This document shows positions 20,286 to 61,113 of a stretch of DNA of 64,000 bases, one piece after another; position 1 is the first letter of the stretch; every line of letters starts with the position of its first letter. The notes beneath the pieces were generated by a model that saw nothing but the letters and a program-made list of their open reading frames with translations, did no database searches and was not told the origin of the DNA. Source of the DNA: Desulfurococcales archaeon (GTDB taxonomy: Archaea; Thermoproteota; Thermoprotei_A; Sulfolobales; Desulfurococcaceae); assembly GCA_027022365.1 (NCBI GenBank), contig JALVYU010000031.1, positions 248,001-312,000 on the forward strand, read 5' to 3'. Made by a program: the position numbers and the translations under genes.

Positions 20286-22091
20286 CTATGTTGTAACAGC
20301 CTTTGCCAGCCCTGGAGGCGTATCTATCGGCCTACCTAGCTTTACGCCTATCCTGTATGCGAGGAGCTGTAGTGGGATAATGTTCGCTATTGGGGCCAAG
20401 TATTTGATTGTAGGCACTGTACGGACTATATTCTCTCCTTCATCATCCATAGATACGACGAGAAGGTTTGCATCCTTACTCTTTATTTCTCTGACAACCT
20501 TATCATATAGCTCGAGGGCCTGCTCCTCGTATGGCTTTATCAATATAACAGGGAATCCTGGCCTGACGAGCACCATTGGGCCATGCCTTAGCTCGCCCAG
20601 TTGTACTCCCTCACTATGGAGTATAGCGGCTTCCTTCAGCTTGAGCGCTGCCTCCAGTGCTACCGGGTAGTTTATACCGCTACTACTCACGTAGATGTTA
20701 TCCCAATTATTATGAACATCAACGATCCTTGTGACATCTCTATCAATTCTGGATAATTCGTGTTGTAGCCTCTTGGAGAGCTCCTCTATTTCCCCATAGA
20801 TCATTCTGACATCGCCTTGGCCTATCTGGCCTGTATGCACTCCTGTATACGCAGCTAGGATCAAGAGAGTTGCAACGGTTGATGTGAATGTCTTTGTTGC
20901 AGGCACAGCTATTTCGGGCCCCGCGCTTATCGGTAGGTAGACGTTGCTTTCAAGTGTGAGCCTTGAGCCAACCATATTTGTTACCCCGACGACCACGGCT
21001 CCTCTCTGTTTTGCTAGCTTGATGCTTCTTATGACATCGCTTGTCTCGCCGCTCTGGCTCACGGCAATTATGACTGTTCCTGTACCAACGTGTTCAAGGC
21101 CATAGTACGGGAACTCCGCCGCACTGACAACTTCTAGATCGATCTTTGCCAGGTCGGCGAAATAGTAGAGCGAGACCAGGCCGGCGTGAAGGCTTGTACC
21201 GTTCGCGATTACATATACGTTCTTGGCGCCCTGGATGATCATTGCGGCTAGTCTGAGATACTTGTCCATTAGGCCATTGATCGTCTGTCTTAATGCGTGT
21301 GGTATCTCGTATATTTCCTTCAACATGTAATGGGGATAGCCCGCCTTATCCCATAGTCCTGCAGGGTATTTGACCCTCTTTCTTATCAATTGTTTGACTT
21401 CGCCGCCTGTAAGGACATCGTAGACTTTGAATTCATCATGACTAATTACCCCGGCCATATTATCTCCCAGCACGGCAGCTTCTGTGGCGAATCCGTGGAG
21501 GCTTGGGATATCGCTGGATATGAAGAATCCCCTTTGCCCGATACCTATTACGAGGGGCTGACCATGTGTTAGTACATATAACCTGTTATCTCCTTGGAAT
21601 AGAACAGCGAAAGCATATACGCCGTCAATGGTTCTCCCTATACCGATAATATCTTCTATCTTATTTTCTTTCTCTGAGACTGACTCGAGAAGATGCGCGA
21701 GTACCTCTGCGTCTGTCGTGGATGAGAATCTATGTCCTTCCCTGATAAGATCGTCTCGGAGTACTTCATAGTCCTTAATGATGCCGTCCACCACGATAGC
21801 TAGGCTTTCCCTACAATCCTGTAGGGGATGTGTATTATTGTCTTTGGGCCATCCCCTGCTGGCGTATCTTGTATGAGCGATCGCTATCTTGGAGGAGATC
21901 TCCGTTATTCCGATATCCTTCCATATTTTTTCTATATGTCCTGCTTTCTTTCTAACTACGAGTTTACCCTCATCGTCGAGGTAAGCGTAACCGGCTCCAT
22001 CATATCCGCGATATATGAGTCTTCTAAGGCCCTCAAACAATATTTTGCCTGGTAACTTGTCTTTGGAAACAAAACCGAAAATGCCGCCCAT
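20286..22091 (-). CDS. GlmS-like aminotransferase lacking the glutaminase cysteine
   Basis: The 601-residue protein aligns end to end with glutamine-fructose-6-phosphate aminotransferase. The sugar-phosphate isomerase half looks intact: SQSGETSD, AVPATKTFTSTV, LKLKEAAILHSEG, ELRHGPMVLV and the final TPPGLAKAVTT. The glutaminase half is folded-looking but damaged. The N-terminus is MGGIFGF where the family has MCGI, so the nucleophile Cys is Gly. HTRWATHG is HTRYASRG and VHNGIIEN is VVDGIIKD. The start is ATG at 22091, after GGGGTG. It may be an ammonia-dependent synthase or, like the isomerase-only GlmD of Thermococcus, a glucosamine-6-phosphate deaminase. Confidence 0.9.
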   Translation of the reverse strand: MGGIFGFVSKDKLPGKILFEGLRRLIYRGYDGAGYAYLDDEGKLVVRKKAGHIEKIWKDIGITEISSKIAIAHTRYASRGWPKDNNTHPLQDCRESLAIVVDGIIKDYEVLRDDLIREGHRFSSTTDAEVLAHLLESVSEKENKIEDIIGIGRTIDGVYAFAVLFQGDNRLYVLTHGQPLVIGIGQRGFFISSDIPSLHGFATEAAVLGDNMAGVISHDEFKVYDVLTGGEVKQLIRKRVKYPAGLWDKAGYPHYMLKEIYEIPHALRQTINGLMDKYLRLAAMIIQGAKNVYVIANGTSLHAGLVSLYYFADLAKIDLEVVSAAEFPYYGLEHVGTGTVIIAVSQSGETSDVIRSIKLAKQRGAVVVGVTNMVGSRLTLESNVYLPISAGPEIAVPATKTFTSTVATLLILAAYTGVHTGQIGQGDVRMIYGEIEELSKRLQHELSRIDRDVTRIVDVHNNWDNIYVSSSGINYPVALEAALKLKEAAILHSEGVQLGELRHGPMVLVRPGFPVILIKPYEEQALELYDKVVREIKSKDANLLVVSMDDEGENIVRTVPTIKYLAPIANIIPLQLLAYRIGVKLGRPIDTPPGLAKAVTT

Positions 22092-22429: not shown

Positions 22430-23638
22430 TTGATGGACCCCATTAATACTGGAAATACTGCTTTCGTTCTCTTATCTGCCGCACTAGTAATGATAATGAC
22501 GCCCGGGCTAGGATTCTTCTACGGCGGACTTGTAGGCCGAAAGAATGCCCTGACAATACTGATGGAATCCTTCTTCTCGCTTGGATGGGTTACGATACTA
22601 TGGGTATTGTTCGGCTACTCGCTGTCTTTCGGGCCCGACATAGCGGGAGTTATTGGTGGCGCAAAGTATTTCTTTATGAACAATATCTTCGAGACGACGA
22701 GGATGGCCGCATTCCAGGGACCATTATACGCTTATGTTATGTTCCAGCTAATGTTCGCCGTAATAACGCCTGCGCTGATAACAGGTGCTTTCGCCAACAA
22801 GATGAAGTTCACGGCATGGATAGCCTTCCTGACACTATGGTCGTTCCTAGTATACTTCCCGGTCGCCCACTGGGTCTGGGGAGGAGGATTCCTGCAGAAA
22901 TGGGGCGTCGAGGACTTCGCAGGAGGTATCGTCGTACACGCTACAGCTGGCTTCTCAGCATTAGCGGCCGCGCTGTGGTTCGGTGTAAGTAGGGTTAAGA
23001 ACAGGCCTCACAACCTCATGTGGGTGGCCCTAGGAACAGCTCTTCTGTGGTTTGGATGGTTCGGCTTCAACGCTGGGAGTGCTCTACGCGCGGGTGGTGA
23101 TGCAGCAATAGCCTTCACGAACACGCAGATCGCCGCGGCATTCGCCGCCGTAACATGGGTATTCCTAGACGTCGCACGTGGAGGCAAGATATCGGCTTCA
23201 GGATTCTGCACAGGGGCCATCGCTGGTCTAGCGACTGTGACGCCGACAGCGGGCTTTATCATGCCTCAGGCCGCGATGATAGTAGGTATTGTCGCCGCCC
23301 TAGTCTGTTATGCAGCAGTAATGTATAAGAACAAGAAGGGATGGGACGACGTACTGGATGTCTGGGGAGTCCACGGCATAGGAGGCTACACGGGTATATT
23401 AATGCTGGGGCTATTCGGTACAAGCCAGGTGCTCGGAGAGAACGGCCTCTTCTACGGCAACCCTGTGTTCTTCCTCAAGGAATGGGCCGCGGTGACATTC
23501 GTATCTGCGTATAGCTTCGTGGTTACGTTGTTCATACTGTGGATAATATCGAGGTTTACTAGGGTCAAGGTTCCGGAGTCCGAAATGGAGTCAGGGCTGG
23601 ATGAAATAGAGCTCGGTGAAGTAGCTTATCCACAGTAG
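22430..23638 (+). CDS. amt: Ammonium transporter (Amt/MEP/Rh family)
   Basis: The 402-residue channel has about 11 membrane helices and the family residues: GLGFFYGGLVGRKNAL in helix 1-2, the first pore histidine in VVHATAGFSALAAAL near residue 168 and the second in WGVHGIGGYTGIL near residue 315. It takes up ammonium. The start is TTG at 22430 or the next codon ATG at 22433, after a GTGA site. No GlnK-type regulator gene is adjacent, unlike most amt loci. It diverges from the GlmS-like gene, which may produce or use ammonia. Confidence 0.95.
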   Translation: MMDPINTGNTAFVLLSAALVMIMTPGLGFFYGGLVGRKNALTILMESFFSLGWVTILWVLFGYSLSFGPDIAGVIGGAKYFFMNNIFETTRMAAFQGPLYAYVMFQLMFAVITPALITGAFANKMKFTAWIAFLTLWSFLVYFPVAHWVWGGGFLQKWGVEDFAGGIVVHATAGFSALAAALWFGVSRVKNRPHNLMWVALGTALLWFGWFGFNAGSALRAGGDAAIAFTNTQIAAAFAAVTWVFLDVARGGKISASGFCTGAIAGLATVTPTAGFIMPQAAMIVGIVAALVCYAAVMYKNKKGWDDVLDVWGVHGIGGYTGILMLGLFGTSQVLGENGLFYGNPVFFLKEWAAVTFVSAYSFVVTLFILWIISRFTRVKVPESEMESGLDEIELGEVAYPQ

Positions 23639-31012: not shown

Positions 31013-31334
31013 GCCTTGTTATCCCGACTATTTATGGGAACCATGTATTACTCATAGCAAATTATTCGCTGAGAGGATTAATAACAAGTTATCAAGCCCC
31101 CACTATGAAGGGCCTTGAGAATTCCTTGTACTGCATAAATACAATGATCAAAGGTTTTTGAAATACATAACGTGAAACAAAGGAGTGTAATTTTGTCTAA
31201 ATAACTAGTAAAAACGGTGGGTGAAAACAGGCATAAGTACACGTAAACAAATTACTTAGAAAACACAGAATAATCTTCGGGCCTACTATCTCTATTGTGC
31301 AGAGTTAATAGCTCCTCAGTTGTGGGTCGACCCT
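31013..31334. other. Gene-free region of about 320 bases
   Basis: I see no credible gene. Near 31182-31204 there is a ribosome-binding-like GGAGTG followed by TTG and a stop after three codons. Farther on, GGTGGGTGA at 31216-31225 leads to no start. TATA-like A/T-rich stretches lie near 31250-31270 before the sugar isomerase gene. It may be a long leader or the remains of a gene. Confidence 0.35.
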
Positions 31335-32078
31335 ATGGCCTCGGACAAGATCTATGAATACTACGTGAAAGTACAAGAAATTATCAAAAAGATCTACAGC
31401 GCCGAAAAACATAACATCTTAAAATCAGCTGAAATGTTTGCAGATGCGTTGATCTCTGATCATATCATCCACGTGGCTGGAGCAGGGCACTCGGCTATGG
31501 CTGGAGAAGAACTATTCTATAGGGCTGGAGGCCTTGTCCCCGTGGATCCTATGATAGGGAATGATATAACAATAAGTTCAGGAGCCATCAAGTCGACAAT
31601 GATGGAGTCTGTCGTAGGCTATGCTAAGGTATTGCTGAACCATCATAACGTCGGGAGAGACGATGTAGTATTAATAGTATCGACGAGCGGGAAGAACCAG
31701 TTCCCCGTAGAAATGGCTGTTGAGGCCAAAAACCTTGGTGCAAAAACAATAGGCATAACGAGCGTTAAGTACTCGGAGACGCTCGAGCCGAAGAACACTT
31801 ATGGTAAAAGGCTCTTCGAGGTCGTAGATATTGTGATAGACAACCACGTTCCACCCGGCGATGCATCTGTGGAATACGAGGGCTTCCCAATGAAAACCTC
31901 GCCCCTGTCAACAATAGCTAATACATTTATTGTCAACTCTATCGTTGCACAGACAACTCAGATCTTGCTAGAAAAAGGTGTTGAACCACCTGTATGGCTA
32001 AGCGCTCATCTGCCAGGTGCTATGGAGCACAACTTGGAGTTACTCGAAAAATATAGAGGAAGGATCAGGCTGTTATAA
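31335..32078 (+). CDS. SIS-domain sugar isomerase protein (UPF0309-like)
   Basis: The protein of about 247 residues contains one SIS phosphosugar-binding domain: AGAGHSAMAGEELFYRAGG near residue 50, STSGKNQFPVEMAVEA near residue 115 and IGITSVKYS after it. The end AHLPGAMEHN matches the UPF0309 group, often found beside NagA-type genes as here. Its phosphosugar substrate is probably an amino sugar. I prefer ATG at 31335; a TTG at 31320 is also in frame. A gap of 105 bases separates it from nagA. Confidence 0.87.
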   Translation: MASDKIYEYYVKVQEIIKKIYSAEKHNILKSAEMFADALISDHIIHVAGAGHSAMAGEELFYRAGGLVPVDPMIGNDITISSGAIKSTMMESVVGYAKVLLNHHNVGRDDVVLIVSTSGKNQFPVEMAVEAKNLGAKTIGITSVKYSETLEPKNTYGKRLFEVVDIVIDNHVPPGDASVEYEGFPMKTSPLSTIANTFIVNSIVAQTTQILLEKGVEPPVWLSAHLPGAMEHNLELLEKYRGRIRLL

Positions 32079-32183: not shown

Positions 32184-33359
32184 GTGGCGAGAGAACTTGT
32201 TATTAGACATGCTAGAATCTATACTCCATTAACAGTCATTAGAGAAGGGTATATCGTTGTCGAAGAAGACGCTATAGCAGAAATCGGCAGAGAGCCCTAT
32301 TCGGGAACAATATCCGACCAATTACACGCGGAAGGACTAATAATTGCACCGGGATTCATCGATACACATATTCACGGTTATGGCGGAAGGGATACTGATG
32401 AAGCAGACGTAGAAGCAATATATACGATATCGAAGGGCTTGGTCAAGCATGGTGTGACAAGCTTCGTCCCATCCTCTGTCACTATGCCTCATGAAGCCCT
32501 AGTCGAAATTGCTAAGTCGATCAAAGAAGCGAGGGAGCAGTGGAAGCCTGAAATAGGGGCGAGAGTACTGGGCCTCCACCTTGAAGGACCGTATCTAAGT
32601 GTGGAGAAGGCAGGTGCTCAGAACAAGGAATATATAAGGCCTGCTTCAATCAAGGAGCTGAAACAATACATTGAGGCTAGCGGAGGACTAATAAGACAAA
32701 TAACCGTTGCACCAGAAAATCCCGGCGCACTAGACCTGATAACATATGCTGTATCTCAAGGCATAACAGTATCCATAGGTCATACAAACGCTACCTACGA
32801 GCAGACAAGACTAGCCATCGAGAGAGGAGCAAGGAAGTCAACACATACATTTAACGGTATGAGGGGAATACATCATCGCGAACCAGGCCCGGTTATCGTC
32901 GTTCTCGAAGATAATAGTGTCTATATCGAGCTAATCACCGACTTCATCCACATAAGTCCTCCCGTAGTCAAGTTCGTGATAAGACATGTTGGGCCATACA
33001 GGATGGTCCTCATATCGGACTCAATATGTGCAACGGGTCTCCCTGACGGTGCATACGAGTTAGGCGGGTTAAAGGTAATCGTTAAGAATGGCGTCCCAAG
33101 GCTTGCCGAAACCGGTGCCCTTGCTGGTAGTACATTGACTCTGGACCGTGCTGTAAGGAACGTTCATAGCCTGGGCTTCGATCTAGGAGAAACACTAGTT
33201 ATGGCCAGCTATACCCCGGCGGCATCTATTAACGCTCTCTGCAGGGATAAAGTAGGGTTGTTGGCGCCCGGGTTCAAGGCAGACCTTGTGTTTCTTGATG
33301 ATTCACTCAATGTTGTTAGGACAATGATTGGTGGAGAAATAGTTTATGAAAAGAGCTAA
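32184..33359 (+). CDS. nagA: N-acetylglucosamine-6-phosphate deacetylase
   Basis: The 391-residue amidohydrolase has the complete NagA set: DTHIHGYGG near residue 60, LHLEGPYLS with the metal-binding glutamate near 135, IGHTNATYEQ and THTFNGMRGIHHREPG with the two histidines, and SDSICATGLPDG with the catalytic aspartate. It releases acetate to give glucosamine-6-phosphate. GTG is the start, preceded by GGTGAGG. The product could be the substrate of the cysteine-less GlmS encoded at 20286. The stop overlaps the convergent MATE gene. Confidence 0.95.
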   Translation: MARELVIRHARIYTPLTVIREGYIVVEEDAIAEIGREPYSGTISDQLHAEGLIIAPGFIDTHIHGYGGRDTDEADVEAIYTISKGLVKHGVTSFVPSSVTMPHEALVEIAKSIKEAREQWKPEIGARVLGLHLEGPYLSVEKAGAQNKEYIRPASIKELKQYIEASGGLIRQITVAPENPGALDLITYAVSQGITVSIGHTNATYEQTRLAIERGARKSTHTFNGMRGIHHREPGPVIVVLEDNSVYIELITDFIHISPPVVKFVIRHVGPYRMVLISDSICATGLPDGAYELGGLKVIVKNGVPRLAETGALAGSTLTLDRAVRNVHSLGFDLGETLVMASYTPAASINALCRDKVGLLAPGFKADLVFLDDSLNVVRTMIGGEIVYEKS

Positions 33360-56056: not shown

Positions 56057-57352
56057 ATGGGTGAGGAACCCCGCGGTATATCTTCTCTCAAAGCTCTTGT
56101 CTACGGCGCTGGCACCCTCATGGGCGTTGGCAGCAGTATGATCGTATCATGGCTAATGTACTACTACTGCCCCCCGCCAGAGGCTGGGCTTATCGCGCTA
56201 GCACCCGTTTTCGCGATGGGAGTAGTTATATTGTTTGGAAGATTCATAGACGCTATAAGCGACCCTATTATCGGGTGGTGGAGCGACCGAACGGTAACCC
56301 GTTGGGGACGGAGAAGGCCCTTCATATTCTTCGGTTTCTTGGCGATGTTGTTCAGCCAGATATTGATCTGGATCCCCCTTGTGCACCAGGTATCATTAAT
56401 CAATGTTCTATACGCAGCGGTTATGGATGGTATATTCTGGTTCGGATATACTGCCGCTATAAATCCATACCTAGCCCTTATACCAGAGATCGCTAGAAAC
56501 CCTAATGATAGAGTTAAACTCACCACATTCCAAGCCTTCTTCAGCCAGATAAGCCTCGTGATAGGCGGTGTGATAGTACCCCTATTACTTGCGGCTATAG
56601 GATTCATTAGCACAGCAGTTGTTCTGGGGGCTATAGGATTCGCCGTGATGCTACCCCTCCTCATAGTGATTAAGGAGAAGCCGCCGGAAGATAAGAAGAT
56701 AGCTACGGGTATGGGAATCTACCGTGCTCTCCTACTAACGTTCAAGAACAGGACATTCCTCCTCTACTTGATCCCTACAGCCATACTATTCCTGAGCGCC
56801 ACGATGATCCAGATGGAGATACCCTACGCAGTCAATGTATTGGCCGGGCTCAACAAGAAGGATGTCTCGCTCTTCTACCTACCACTAATAATCACAGCGA
56901 TCATATCACTTCCTTTCTACAAGAAGCTCGCCTCGAAATATGGTAAGAAAAAACTATACCTGATGGCCATGACATGCTTCATGATACCAGCCTTCCTCAC
57001 AGCATTCATAGGAATAATACCCGTTAGCCCGCGCATAATGATCATAGGCCTCGGAGCGCTGGCAGGAGTATTCGTAGCGCCGCTCTACATTTTCCCCAAC
57101 GCGATCATAGCGGACATAACTGATATAGATGAGCAGATGACGGGATACAGGAGAGAAGCAATTTACTTCGGATCACAGGGACTGATCACAAAAACAATGG
57201 CGGGGCTAGCCGGGGTACTAACAGGGACACTAATGTGGAAACTAGGATACAGTCCAGGCAACGACCTCGGAATAAGAGCATCATTCATACTAGCAGCACT
57301 AGTACTAATAATAGCCGCACTAATATTCAGAAAGTATCCTATCGAAAAATAA
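56057..57352 (+). CDS. GPH family sugar:cation symporter
   Basis: The 431-residue protein has twelve membrane helices and the MelB-type signature RFIDAISDPIIGWWSDRTV followed by WGRRRPFIFFG near residues 50-80. Members import galactosides, glucuronides, xylosides or pentoses with Na+ or H+. GGTGGTAAG precedes the ATG. Its neighbours encode a second transporter, a deacetylase and a GH84-like hydrolase, so a glycoside substrate is a fair guess. Confidence 0.93.
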   Translation: MGEEPRGISSLKALVYGAGTLMGVGSSMIVSWLMYYYCPPPEAGLIALAPVFAMGVVILFGRFIDAISDPIIGWWSDRTVTRWGRRRPFIFFGFLAMLFSQILIWIPLVHQVSLINVLYAAVMDGIFWFGYTAAINPYLALIPEIARNPNDRVKLTTFQAFFSQISLVIGGVIVPLLLAAIGFISTAVVLGAIGFAVMLPLLIVIKEKPPEDKKIATGMGIYRALLLTFKNRTFLLYLIPTAILFLSATMIQMEIPYAVNVLAGLNKKDVSLFYLPLIITAIISLPFYKKLASKYGKKKLYLMAMTCFMIPAFLTAFIGIIPVSPRIMIIGLGALAGVFVAPLYIFPNAIIADITDIDEQMTGYRREAIYFGSQGLITKTMAGLAGVLTGTLMWKLGYSPGNDLGIRASFILAALVLIIAALIFRKYPIEK

Positions 57353-57713
57353 CGTCTCATCGAAATCGCTGGTATAGCCACACAAGTTTTTAAAAACAAT
57401 TAGCACTCGTCCAGGGGTAAAAGGGAGACTAAGGGAGAGGCGAGATAAAACATAATCTATAGGACAACTACCAGGAGAGCCGGGCTTTAGAATAAAGTAA
57501 TAATGCATTATACATAGCGCCTGCTGAGGAAAAGACCTACCCTTATTTTGCTCCGGAGGAGAAGCAAGCGAGAAACCGCTAAAGGACTCGGTGTAAAGAC
57601 AGTTCATATTGACCATAAGGAAAATAATTAGTGTTCATCAACAAATGTGTTCCGACAATACAGCGTCACGGAAGTGTCATTGAAAAACTATCTAGTGATC
57701 CGCCAGTGGTGCT
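57353..57713. other. Gene-free region of about 360 bases
   Basis: I find no supported gene. A TATA-like tttttaaaaac near 57387 is followed by a purine-rich stretch (57410-57560) that has no matching protein gene downstream, so a non-coding transcript is possible. Compositional evidence is weak, and I could not draw a convincing fold or a box C/D pattern. A reverse frame at 57320-57616 overlaps the symporter end and looks random. Confidence 0.3.
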
Positions 57714-58901
57714 ATGGAAATGCGTTTTCAAGAGCTCCCCGTCAGTGCCCGTAGATACATATTGTATCACGCTCTTGTCTCACCGGTTCTTATTACCTGG
57801 TATTTGTTACCATATTATCTGTTGTTGACCGGGTATAGTGTCCTAGAGGTAGGCGCTATATTTACGGCGGTAAATGTTCTAAGTGTTCCTCTAACTCTTT
57901 GGCTCGGCAAGAAGTTCCAAAGCATTGATATTAGGAAGGGATTAGCGACTATCGACGTGCTTGAATCCATGTCGAATGTAGCATACGGCTTTGCCTACGG
58001 TCCCATAGCGCCCTTAATGATCGTTCTTGGCGGGCTTACCGAGAAAGCTAGCGGCACCTTATATTTTCTATACCCGGCCTACGAGAGGATAATATATCCC
58101 GAGGACAGGATGAAGGAAGCACTGTCTATTCATTTGAGGATACCAGAGCTAACAATAATTCTCACATATCCCGTCATAGGGTTCATGCTCGGCTACGTAT
58201 GGTCTTCCCCAGCCTCAATAAGGTACTCTTTTCTCATGTTCGCCGCATACCAGTTTGCACTAGTACCCTATATATTATGGTTCTTTAGACCCGTAAAGAT
58301 ATCCCGCGAAGAGGAAGACAGCCCTAACACCTCTAAGCCTTCCTTAGGCCGTCTACCCAGAAAGTACTTGGCTTACATCATAGCCGATGTACTGTTTATT
58401 CTGGCTTGGCTACTCGCACCCAATCTAGCTCTCGTGTATTATGTCCTCAAATGGCTGCATGGAAACATATTCCATGTAGCATTGATTGAGGCCAGTATAT
58501 CTACAGCTACAATTATCGGTACCTTCATAGTTGATAGGCTAGCAAGAGACAAGCCCGGGCGATACTTGGCAGCGGGAACACTCATAACAGTAGCAGGTTT
58601 AGGGATGGCCGTAGCAACCAGTATATTTCCAATCATACTGCTTGCCTTCTTCATAGTTAGGCTGGGGGATAGTATCGTGTTTGTCTACAAGCGGTTATGG
58701 CTATACAGCATAATGAGTAGAGGAGAAGCATCCATAGCATCCGCATTGATCTCGAGCATAAGGCGGACAATATCATTGTTCTCTCCCGGCCTAGCATCCC
58801 TACTTTCAACATTGAATCCCCGTGCACCATACATCGCGTGCTTGACACTGTTACTCGTGACTATACCAGTGTATCTATCATTTCTGGCAAAGAAAAAATA
58901 G
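57714..58901 (+). CDS. MFS transporter
   Basis: The 395-residue protein has about twelve membrane helices in two halves, an acidic linker between helices 6 and 7 (REEEDSPNTS), and a loose MFS pattern. Motif A after helix 2 reads LWLGKKFQSIDIRKG, near the GxLxDRxGRK consensus. AGTGGTGCT precedes the ATG. The substrate is unknown; placement between a GPH symporter and a deacetylase suggests a sugar or peptide. Confidence 0.8.
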   Translation: MEMRFQELPVSARRYILYHALVSPVLITWYLLPYYLLLTGYSVLEVGAIFTAVNVLSVPLTLWLGKKFQSIDIRKGLATIDVLESMSNVAYGFAYGPIAPLMIVLGGLTEKASGTLYFLYPAYERIIYPEDRMKEALSIHLRIPELTIILTYPVIGFMLGYVWSSPASIRYSFLMFAAYQFALVPYILWFFRPVKISREEEDSPNTSKPSLGRLPRKYLAYIIADVLFILAWLLAPNLALVYYVLKWLHGNIFHVALIEASISTATIIGTFIVDRLARDKPGRYLAAGTLITVAGLGMAVATSIFPIILLAFFIVRLGDSIVFVYKRLWLYSIMSRGEASIASALISSIRRTISLFSPGLASLLSTLNPRAPYIACLTLLLVTIPVYLSFLAKKK

Positions 58902-59168
58902 AGAGGCCATGAGAACCACATAATGTATCTATAATGTTCAAAACATATACCAAGGATTCTCCTAGAGAGCTGACATCGTACGAGATACAGTCATCCCCAA
59001 CGAATTTTGGACTAGACCATCATTTCTACTGAGACCCGGGAAACAGGATCACTGTTGTCTATAGTGTTAATCTAGTATTTGTTGTTCTCGCTACGTTCAT
59101 TACATGGTTATATAATAAATACATACAATACTTATATAGTGATTACAATAGCGTCAGGTGCCCGCGTC

Positions 59169-59954
59169 TTGTCCTATGAAGAAATTAGTAGATTGGCGGA
59201 TTTGATACGCTCTTATTTAAAACAATATGGCTACGATATAGACGAAGCCCCATACACTGCTAATCGAATACTCTGTATTGCTCCTCACCCTGACGATTGT
59301 GAAGTTGGAGCCGGAGGCCTGCTGGCTAAGGCATCGGATCACGGGACAGAAACCTACATCCTCGTCCTCACAGATGGGTCAATGGGCACTAGCAGGCCGG
59401 GCATAAGTAGGGATGAACTAGCGCTGAGAAGACGTAGAGAGCAGGAGGAGGCTGCGAAAGTCTTAGGGGTTAAGAAGGTTTACTGGCTAGGCTACAGGGA
59501 TGGCTTCCTCCCATATACTGATGAGGCTCGATTAAGGATAGCCACCATAATACGGCGGGTTAAACCCGATCTCGTATTGGCCCCCGATCCATGGATGATG
59601 TATGAGGCCCACCCAGATCATCGGAGAGCAGGACTACTGGTTTCAGAGGCCTTCCTCTACTCTGGCTTCCCCCTCTACGGTCCCGAGACCGGTGATCCCT
59701 GGAGCCCCCGGTATATCGCCTACTACTACACTGGCAGGCCGAACGTCTACGTTGACATAACGGGTTATCTGGAAAAGAAGCTTGAAGCCTTAAAGAAGCA
59801 TGAAAGCCAGCTAGAAGGCCTAGAACCACTTCTCAAACTCCTAGTCGTCTATGCAGAGCAAGCTGGGAAGAAAATAGGCGTCAAATACGCAGAACCACTA
59901 AAGATCCTGCCAAGAATACTCGTGCACGCCATACCCCTCGCAGAGATAATCTAA
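59169..59954 (+). CDS. PIG-L/LmbE-type N-acetylglucosaminyl deacetylase
   Basis: The protein of about 261 residues has the zinc motif APHPDDCEVGAGGLL near residue 38 and the third ligand in YEAHPDHRRAGLLV near residue 140. The family removes acetyl groups from GlcNAc or its glycosides; archaeal members include the diacetylchitobiose deacetylase of Thermococcus. An in-frame ATG at 59079 would add 30 residues of unlikely sequence, while TTG at 59169 follows GGTG by eight bases. It is 14 bases before the GH84-like gene, so the two probably act on the same glycans. Confidence 0.9.
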   Translation: MSYEEISRLADLIRSYLKQYGYDIDEAPYTANRILCIAPHPDDCEVGAGGLLAKASDHGTETYILVLTDGSMGTSRPGISRDELALRRRREQEEAAKVLGVKKVYWLGYRDGFLPYTDEARLRIATIIRRVKPDLVLAPDPWMMYEAHPDHRRAGLLVSEAFLYSGFPLYGPETGDPWSPRYIAYYYTGRPNVYVDITGYLEKKLEALKKHESQLEGLEPLLKLLVVYAEQAGKKIGVKYAEPLKILPRILVHAIPLAEII

Positions 59955-59967
59955 GAGGGCACAGGAA

Positions 59968-61113
59968 ATGATCAAGGGAGTAGTAGAGGGGTTCTACGGG
60001 CCTACATGGGACCTGCTCGACAGGCTCTCAATAATAGACCTACTGTCTTATCTCGAGATGAACACATACGTGTATGCGCCGAAATGGGATCCCTACCATA
60101 GGGAGAGGTGGAGGAGCCCCTACCCCGAAAACATCCTCCTCGAACTGGAAATACTCTCTGACCATGCCAGGAGGAGAAGAGTAGAACCAGTATACGCGTT
60201 ATCCCCGGGACTAGACATAGATTATTCGAGCAGAGAAGACCTAGGAGCACTACTGAGGAAATACCAGCAGGTAATGAATGCTGGCTACGACTCGATAGCG
60301 CTGCTCCTAGATGATATCCCCCCAGTACTGAGGGGTAAAGGCTATAAAACACTAGCAGAGGCCCAGGCAAGCTTGGCGAACAAAGTCTACAAGGAGCTAA
60401 AGCCGAAGATAATGATGTTATGTCCAACACACTATTGGGGATACCATGAAGACTACCTAAGGGAGCTCGGCGAGAAACTAGACCCCGAGGTAAAGATATT
60501 TTGGACAGGGCCCGGAATAGTATCCCGTAAAATAACGGTAGAAGGCGTCAAGAAATTCATCGAGATCACGGGTAGAAAGCCACTGATCTGGGATAACTAT
60601 CCGGTAAACGACTACTTCTTAGTAAAAGGCTACTATCGCCTACACCTAGGACCATACAAGGGCAGAGACCCCAAAATACTAGACATGGCCGAGGGGATCC
60701 TATTGAACCCGATGAACCAGGCAGAACTATCGAAAATCCCGATCCACACAGCGGGAATATTTCTACAAGACCCACAGCACTACAACCCCCTGCAGGCTTT
60801 AGAGGAAGCAATAACACACAACATAAACCCCGAGGCAAGAAGAGCCTTCAGAATCATAGTTATGCTACAACAATCAACGCCAATGGATCCCCAGGCAGAC
60901 CACAAGCCTAGACCCGAAGAAGCGGACACATTATTAAAAGCAGTGATGGAGCTACAGACAAAATTAACAAACAAGAAGATGCTACATGAACTAGCCTATT
61001 TACTACAAGGAGTACAACAACTAGTTCAAAGCCTCGAAGGAAAAGCGGAACCCCACCCAAGGATATTGCTGGCAGGAAAATACCTAGTTCAACTCATACC
61101 GGGGTATAAGTAA
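59968..61113 (+). CDS. GH84-like beta-N-acetylglucosaminidase
   Basis: The 381-residue protein starts like GH84 catalytic domains: VVEGFYGPTWDLLDRL at residue 5 and YAPKWDPYHRERWRSPYP near 36. ALLLDDIPP carries the adjacent aspartates 115-116 expected to be the catalytic pair of this substrate-assisted family, and IWDNYPVND lies near residue 207. It has no signal peptide, so it works in the cytoplasm, and no extra carbohydrate-binding modules. Bacterial and eukaryotic relatives cleave GlcNAc from proteins or oligosaccharides. With the deacetylase next to it, breakdown of imported chitooligomers or of the cell's own glycans is plausible. Confidence 0.88.
   Translation: MIKGVVEGFYGPTWDLLDRLSIIDLLSYLEMNTYVYAPKWDPYHRERWRSPYPENILLELEILSDHARRRRVEPVYALSPGLDIDYSSREDLGALLRKYQQVMNAGYDSIALLLDDIPPVLRGKGYKTLAEAQASLANKVYKELKPKIMMLCPTHYWGYHEDYLRELGEKLDPEVKIFWTGPGIVSRKITVEGVKKFIEITGRKPLIWDNYPVNDYFLVKGYYRLHLGPYKGRDPKILDMAEGILLNPMNQAELSKIPIHTAGIFLQDPQHYNPLQALEEAITHNINPEARRAFRIIVMLQQSTPMDPQADHKPRPEEADTLLKAVMELQTKLTNKKMLHELAYLLQGVQQLVQSLEGKAEPHPRILLAGKYLVQLIPGYK

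Follow-up and report, generated by a model that had tools for sequence, protein, structure and literature searches.

The locus

The window (the 64,000-nucleotide stretch of DNA that was analysed, from a Desulfurococcales archaeon) contains a full-length homologue of GlmS whose translation begins MGGIFGF (Table 1). GGGGTG precedes its ATG by a few bases. Pfam assigns two SIS domains to the protein, along with glutamine amidotransferase domains, and its top matches among solved structures are E. coli GlmS, at about 33% identity. Its score against the NCBIfam model for GlmS is above the cut-off (TIGR01135; 498.4 bits, cut-off 418, residues 3-600), and its scores against the models for GlmD and NagB-II are far under theirs (NF041128, 86.3/580 bits; NF046059, 121.1/430 bits).

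In the numbering of mature E. coli GlmS, the protein has the changes C1->G, W74->Y, T76->S, H77->R, H97->V, and N98->D, so that the motifs of the glutaminase pocket read HTRYASRG and VVDGIIKD. From established GlmS biochemistry, we take C1 to be the nucleophile of the glutaminase and N98 to form the oxyanion hole. R73, G99, and D123, which presumably hold the amino and carboxylate groups of glutamine as in GlmS, are unchanged, as are E488, H504, and K603, which we take to be the catalytic residues of the isomerase. The isomerase motifs GTS, SQSGET, KLKE, GELRHGP, and LAK are all intact. The translation therefore bears out what had been noticed from the sequence alone: Cys to Gly at the nucleophile, other changes in the same pocket, and an isomerase domain with its motifs kept. 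A search for another, intact GlmS found a Cys-type copy elsewhere in this genome (L008:5260-7098, minus strand), with a TTG start followed by CGIIGIT and with HTRWATHG, HNGI, and SDTDTE. We refer to the window's protein and its orthologues as dead GlmS.

Table 1. Features of the window that are discussed in the text
Feature	Position	Strand	Details
GlmS paralogue, catalytically dead glutaminase domain, predicted glucosamine-6-phosphate deaminase	20286..22091	-	601 aa, sequence
N-terminal Ntn-glutaminase-like domain, about residues 1-254	21330..22091	-	C1->G, N98->D, W74->Y, H77->R; R73, G99, D123 retained; AF2 model
SIS-SIS isomerase domain	20286..21329	-	E488, H504, K603 equivalents retained
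Ammonium transporter Amt	22430..23638	+	PF00909, E 6e-104; divergent from the GlmS paralogue, 338-bp gap
SIS_2 sugar isomerase-domain protein	31320..32078	+	recurs beside NagA and dead GlmS across genera
NagA, N-acetylglucosamine-6-phosphate deacetylase, predicted substrate supplier	32184..33359	+	TIGR00221, 318 bits vs cut-off 226
PIG-L family deacetylase, beside GH84	59079..59954	+	
GH84-type beta-N-acetylglucosaminidase, possible GlcNAc source	59968..61113	+	PF07555, E 2.5e-91

The gene does diverge from amt, as the sequence-only reading had it. At 56057-61113 of the window, two transporter-like proteins, the PIG-L deacetylase, and the GH84 glucosaminidase form a row, which is perhaps a cluster for the use of GlcNAc-containing glycans. 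BadF-type and ROK kinases are encoded elsewhere in the genome.

Dead GlmS is a conserved lineage

Searching 229 genomes of the class gave two tiers of proteins, the dead GlmS family and Cys-type GlmS, for which we fetched about 80 and 20 loci. Among heat-loving archaea, about 80 genomes carry dead GlmS. They belong to 9 families, and carriers also occur in Thermoproteales and Thermofilales; scanning GTDB contigs brought in Thermoproteus, Vulcanisaeta, Caldivirga, Thermocladium, and Thermofilum. Every dead GlmS with a readable N-terminus starts with Gly-Gly, and every Cys-type GlmS starts with Cys-Gly. In the alignment from which we took counts, all 61 rows of dead GlmS that could be scored at position 1 have Gly there. 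(Two rows could not be scored: one is truncated, and the other, L202, was trimmed by the choice of start; in register it reads GGVCG, with the other pocket residues as in the rest of the family.) Position 98 is Asp in 62 of 63 rows (98%) and Glu in the other, and E488, H504, and K603 are retained in 63/63. The orthologues thus have the same substitutions as the window's protein, and judging from this alignment the changes at positions 1 and 98 are far beyond chance. A sequencing error in the Cys codon, which the sequence-only reading had allowed for, is excluded because Gly is common to all scorable orthologues.

In a quick tree (without bootstrap), which was built from the isomerase domain alone so that the trait itself was left out, a branch with SH-aLRT 98 separates dead GlmS from everything else, and another with SH-aLRT 99 does so for the Cys-type archaeal GlmS. 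On this tree, dead GlmS is one ancient lineage. Most genomes with dead GlmS, including the window's, also hold an intact GlmS. In two near-complete genomes, G125 and G133 (loci L114 and L099), dead GlmS is the sole full-length GlmS and no Cys-type GlmS was found; a SIS-only homologue is also present. Searching at the level of titles and abstracts, with subscription journals mostly outside the search, we found no publication on this protein.

We also note two other kinds of altered GlmS. In G004, dead GlmS is interrupted (L096:2956-4772; two frames, one TGA) and broken pieces of NagA lie nearby; this copy may be in decay, or the assembly may be at fault. Several Bacillales (L221, L222, L225, L227, L229, and L238) have a separate GlmS homologue that starts with MSGIVGYIG (Cys1->Ser), with a glutaminase pocket that is otherwise largely intact (HTRWASHG, HNGI, DTDTE). 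In the tree it is separate from the crenarchaeal dead GlmS.

The glutaminase domain

The N-domain of dead GlmS evolves faster than the isomerase domain (the identity ratio is 0.76-0.81, vs 0.99 in intact GlmS). In most close pairs its dN/dS is about 0.05-0.17, ignoring saturated dS values. By these measures it is under purifying selection and is no relic. There are 50 columns in the N-domain that are invariant in Cys-type GlmS: 17 of these are retained in dead GlmS, R73, G99, and D123 among them. Just two, C1->G and N98->D, have switched to another conserved residue. The C-terminal tail (599-608) is also invariant in Cys-type GlmS and is loosened in dead GlmS, with K603 still invariant. The pattern of columns points to a site that lost catalysis and retained amino-acid binding, and the residues are strong evidence that glutaminase function is lost. 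So the earlier description of this domain as dead holds for catalysis, to the extent that residues show this, but not if it is taken to mean a relic, given the invariant amino-acid-recognition residues and the purifying selection.

With R73, G99, and D123 invariant and purifying selection acting on the domain, a role in amino-acid sensing is possible. We suggest tentatively, as the less likely side of the question, that the N-domain might be a sensor that binds glutamate or glutamine and that controls a GlmS-derived deaminase by nitrogen status across crenarchaea.

The AF2 model of the window's protein, a monomer prediction (pLDDT 93, pTM 0.92), matches E. coli GlmS with a TM of about 0.55. 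The model of the intact paralogue, from a shallower alignment (pLDDT 89.6), reaches 0.85-0.90 to 2J6H and 1JXA, but this control reaches only about 0.54 to 3OOJ. The models suggest that the N-domain of dead GlmS docks differently, but this is a lead only, because these are monomer predictions and the domains of GlmS move about a hinge.

Dead GlmS is linked to NagA

Of 81 fetched loci, 24 have NagA within 3 kb of dead GlmS, and in 19 the two are within 200 bp of each other. The gene orders vary (tandem, divergent, or convergent). The two genes also co-occur: the two-by-two table is 57/25/16/131 by genome (229 genomes, p = 8e-20) and 25/3/6/53 by genus (p = 4e-13), with both genes in 25 of the 28 genera with dead GlmS, where the p-values are from Fisher tests that ignore shared ancestry. 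Subsets of the loci also have GH84, AnmK, a BadF-type kinase, a MupG-like protein, or the SIS_2 protein nearby, and a motif scan of the fetched neighbourhoods found no GlmM- or GlmU-like motifs. By contrast with the linkage to NagA, amt adjoins dead GlmS at just 4 loci, all of them from the window's genus, and we reject Amt as a functional partner of the family as a whole.

Three genera (g13, g24, and g54) have dead GlmS and no detected NagA. We considered PIG-L deacetylase as a general substitute for NagA in these genera and rejected it, as it is present in some of the genomes only.

Classical NagB (TIGR00502) had no match in the window's genome or in the 229 genomes of the class, while the controls matched. 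Searching the class with the GlmD model at E <= 1e-60 gave 0 matches, but its control was equally silent, so this result does not speak for absence.

Some genomes without dead GlmS link NagA to other isomerase domains. In G007, G009, and G010, NagA is fused to a SIS-only domain that resembles GlmS or NagB-II (L152:769-3084, L153:7452-9806, and L154; one protein of ~770-785 aa), and in G206 a SIS-only protein of this kind adjoins NagA. This is an independent link of NagA to a GlmS-type isomerase domain. At L106, L109, and L156, a separate SIS-only homologue is also beside NagA.

Predicted function

We propose that dead GlmS is a GlmS-derived enzyme without glutamine hydrolysis and that it probably acts mainly as a glucosamine-6-phosphate (GlcN6P) deaminase downstream of NagA. 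Deamination is more probable than amination because the residue that splits glutamine is lost and a gene for amino-sugar breakdown is adjacent. Our reasons for this proposal are the missing nucleophile, the altered oxyanion hole, the complete isomerase site, the single ancient lineage, the conserved linkage to NagA, and the failure to find NagB in the class. NagA would supply GlcN6P, which dead GlmS would convert with water to Fru6P and NH3. SIS-only deaminases such as GlmD and NagB-II are thought to run the half-reaction of GlmS backwards, and the isomerase domain of dead GlmS may do the same, using H504 for ring opening, E488 for proton transfer between C1 and C2, and K603. The relaxed C-terminal tail would no longer seal the channel to the glutaminase, and the N-domain could be retained for structural reasons or to bind an amino acid. 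If dead GlmS is a deaminase, then the pathway from GlcNAc to Fru6P can be drawn in full for the window's genome, which encodes GH84, the BadF-type and ROK kinases, and NagA, plus the separate intact GlmS.

Several observations count against a deaminase. The protein passes the cut-off of the GlmS equivalog model and is far from reaching those for GlmD and NagB-II; G125 and G133 have it as their sole full-length GlmS; three genera lack a detected NagA; and at L106, L109, and L156 the SIS-only homologue could be the deaminase.

The sequence-only reading had offered two ways of using ammonia. Its second option, a deaminase after NagA, is strongly supported, and NagA is the recurrent neighbour. Its first, a GlcN6P synthase that uses free NH4+ supplied by Amt, by analogy with carbamoyl phosphate synthetase I, whose glutaminase lost its Cys, now seems unlikely. 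The intact isomerase domain, the divergent amt in the window's genus, the lack of a Cys-type GlmS in G125 and G133, and the three genera without NagA would all fit a synthase. However, the linkage to amt is genus-specific, most genomes (the window's included) also have an intact GlmS, and NagA, the conserved partner, is a deacetylase with a catabolic role.

We also think it improbable that dead GlmS is a deaminase or isomerase for another amino-sugar phosphate (such as GalN6P or a sugar of the muramic type) and that NagA uses the corresponding N-acetylated sugar. A400->P, near the sugar site, is specific to the family and invariant in it, some loci have AnmK- and MupG-like neighbours, and in some genomes a SIS-only homologue sits beside NagA, all of which could indicate a different substrate. 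But the linked NagA scores above the cut-off for GlcNAc6P deacetylase, and the catalytic residues match those of GlmS.

Coexistence with intact GlmS in most genomes would be consistent with a non-enzymatic regulatory partner in mixed oligomers, but this is very improbable: the isomerase's catalytic residues are invariant, the linkage is to NagA rather than to glmS, and G125 and G133 have dead GlmS without intact GlmS. Finally, a sequencing error or a pseudogene drifting after duplication might account for the faster N-domain, but is ruled out by the Gly that all scorable members from many families share, the open frames, the low dN/dS, and the single group on the tree.

Comparison with known systems

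Dead GlmS resembles GlmS/GFAT, glutamine--fructose-6-phosphate aminotransferase (EC 2.6.1.16; TIGR01135; E. coli structures 1JXA, 2J6H, 3OOJ), in its two-domain architecture, its isomerase catalytic residues, and its score above the family cut-off. Unlike GlmS/GFAT, it has Cys1->Gly, N98->D, a relaxed tail, and linkage to NagA, and its AF2 model has another arrangement of the domains. Because it passes the equivalog model, automatic annotation would name it a glutamine-dependent synthase, although the residue that is needed is absent, its residues predict no glutamine-dependent synthesis of GlcN6P, and the opposite reaction is probable.

PDB 3OOJ is E. coli GlmS C1A, which also lacks the nucleophile, and its title indicates that glutamate is still bound, so a glutaminase domain without the nucleophile can retain an amino acid. 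It is an engineered single mutant, whereas dead GlmS is natural, also has N98->D, and forms a conserved lineage.

Carbamoyl phosphate synthetase I is ammonia-dependent and, like dead GlmS, has kept a glutaminase domain that is catalytically dead, on an enzyme that still works. It is unrelated to dead GlmS, its glutaminase is of class I rather than class II, and it works in the synthetic direction. Dead GlmS would offer an example from nature of a glutaminase domain that selection has preserved although its catalysis was lost.

GlmD from Thermococcus and NagB-II from Shewanella are glucosamine-6-phosphate deaminases. Like dead GlmS, they have a GlmS-type SIS-SIS catalytic domain, and we predict the same deamination. 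The genomic coupling to GlcNAc/GlcN6P catabolism that marks these enzymes is also seen for dead GlmS, in its adjacency to and co-occurrence with NagA. They differ from dead GlmS in having no N-terminal glutaminase domain; dead GlmS also branches apart from the SIS-only homologues that we sampled and is below the cut-offs of the GlmD and NagB-II models. Judging from its sequence, then, dead GlmS belongs to the GlmS family by descent, with neither the defining catalytic feature of GlmS nor the domain make-up of GlmD and NagB-II, and most likely it works like a GlcN6P deaminase of the GlmD/NagB-II kind. If so, it would provide crenarchaea, in which we found no NagB, with a deamination step in the catabolism of GlcNAc.
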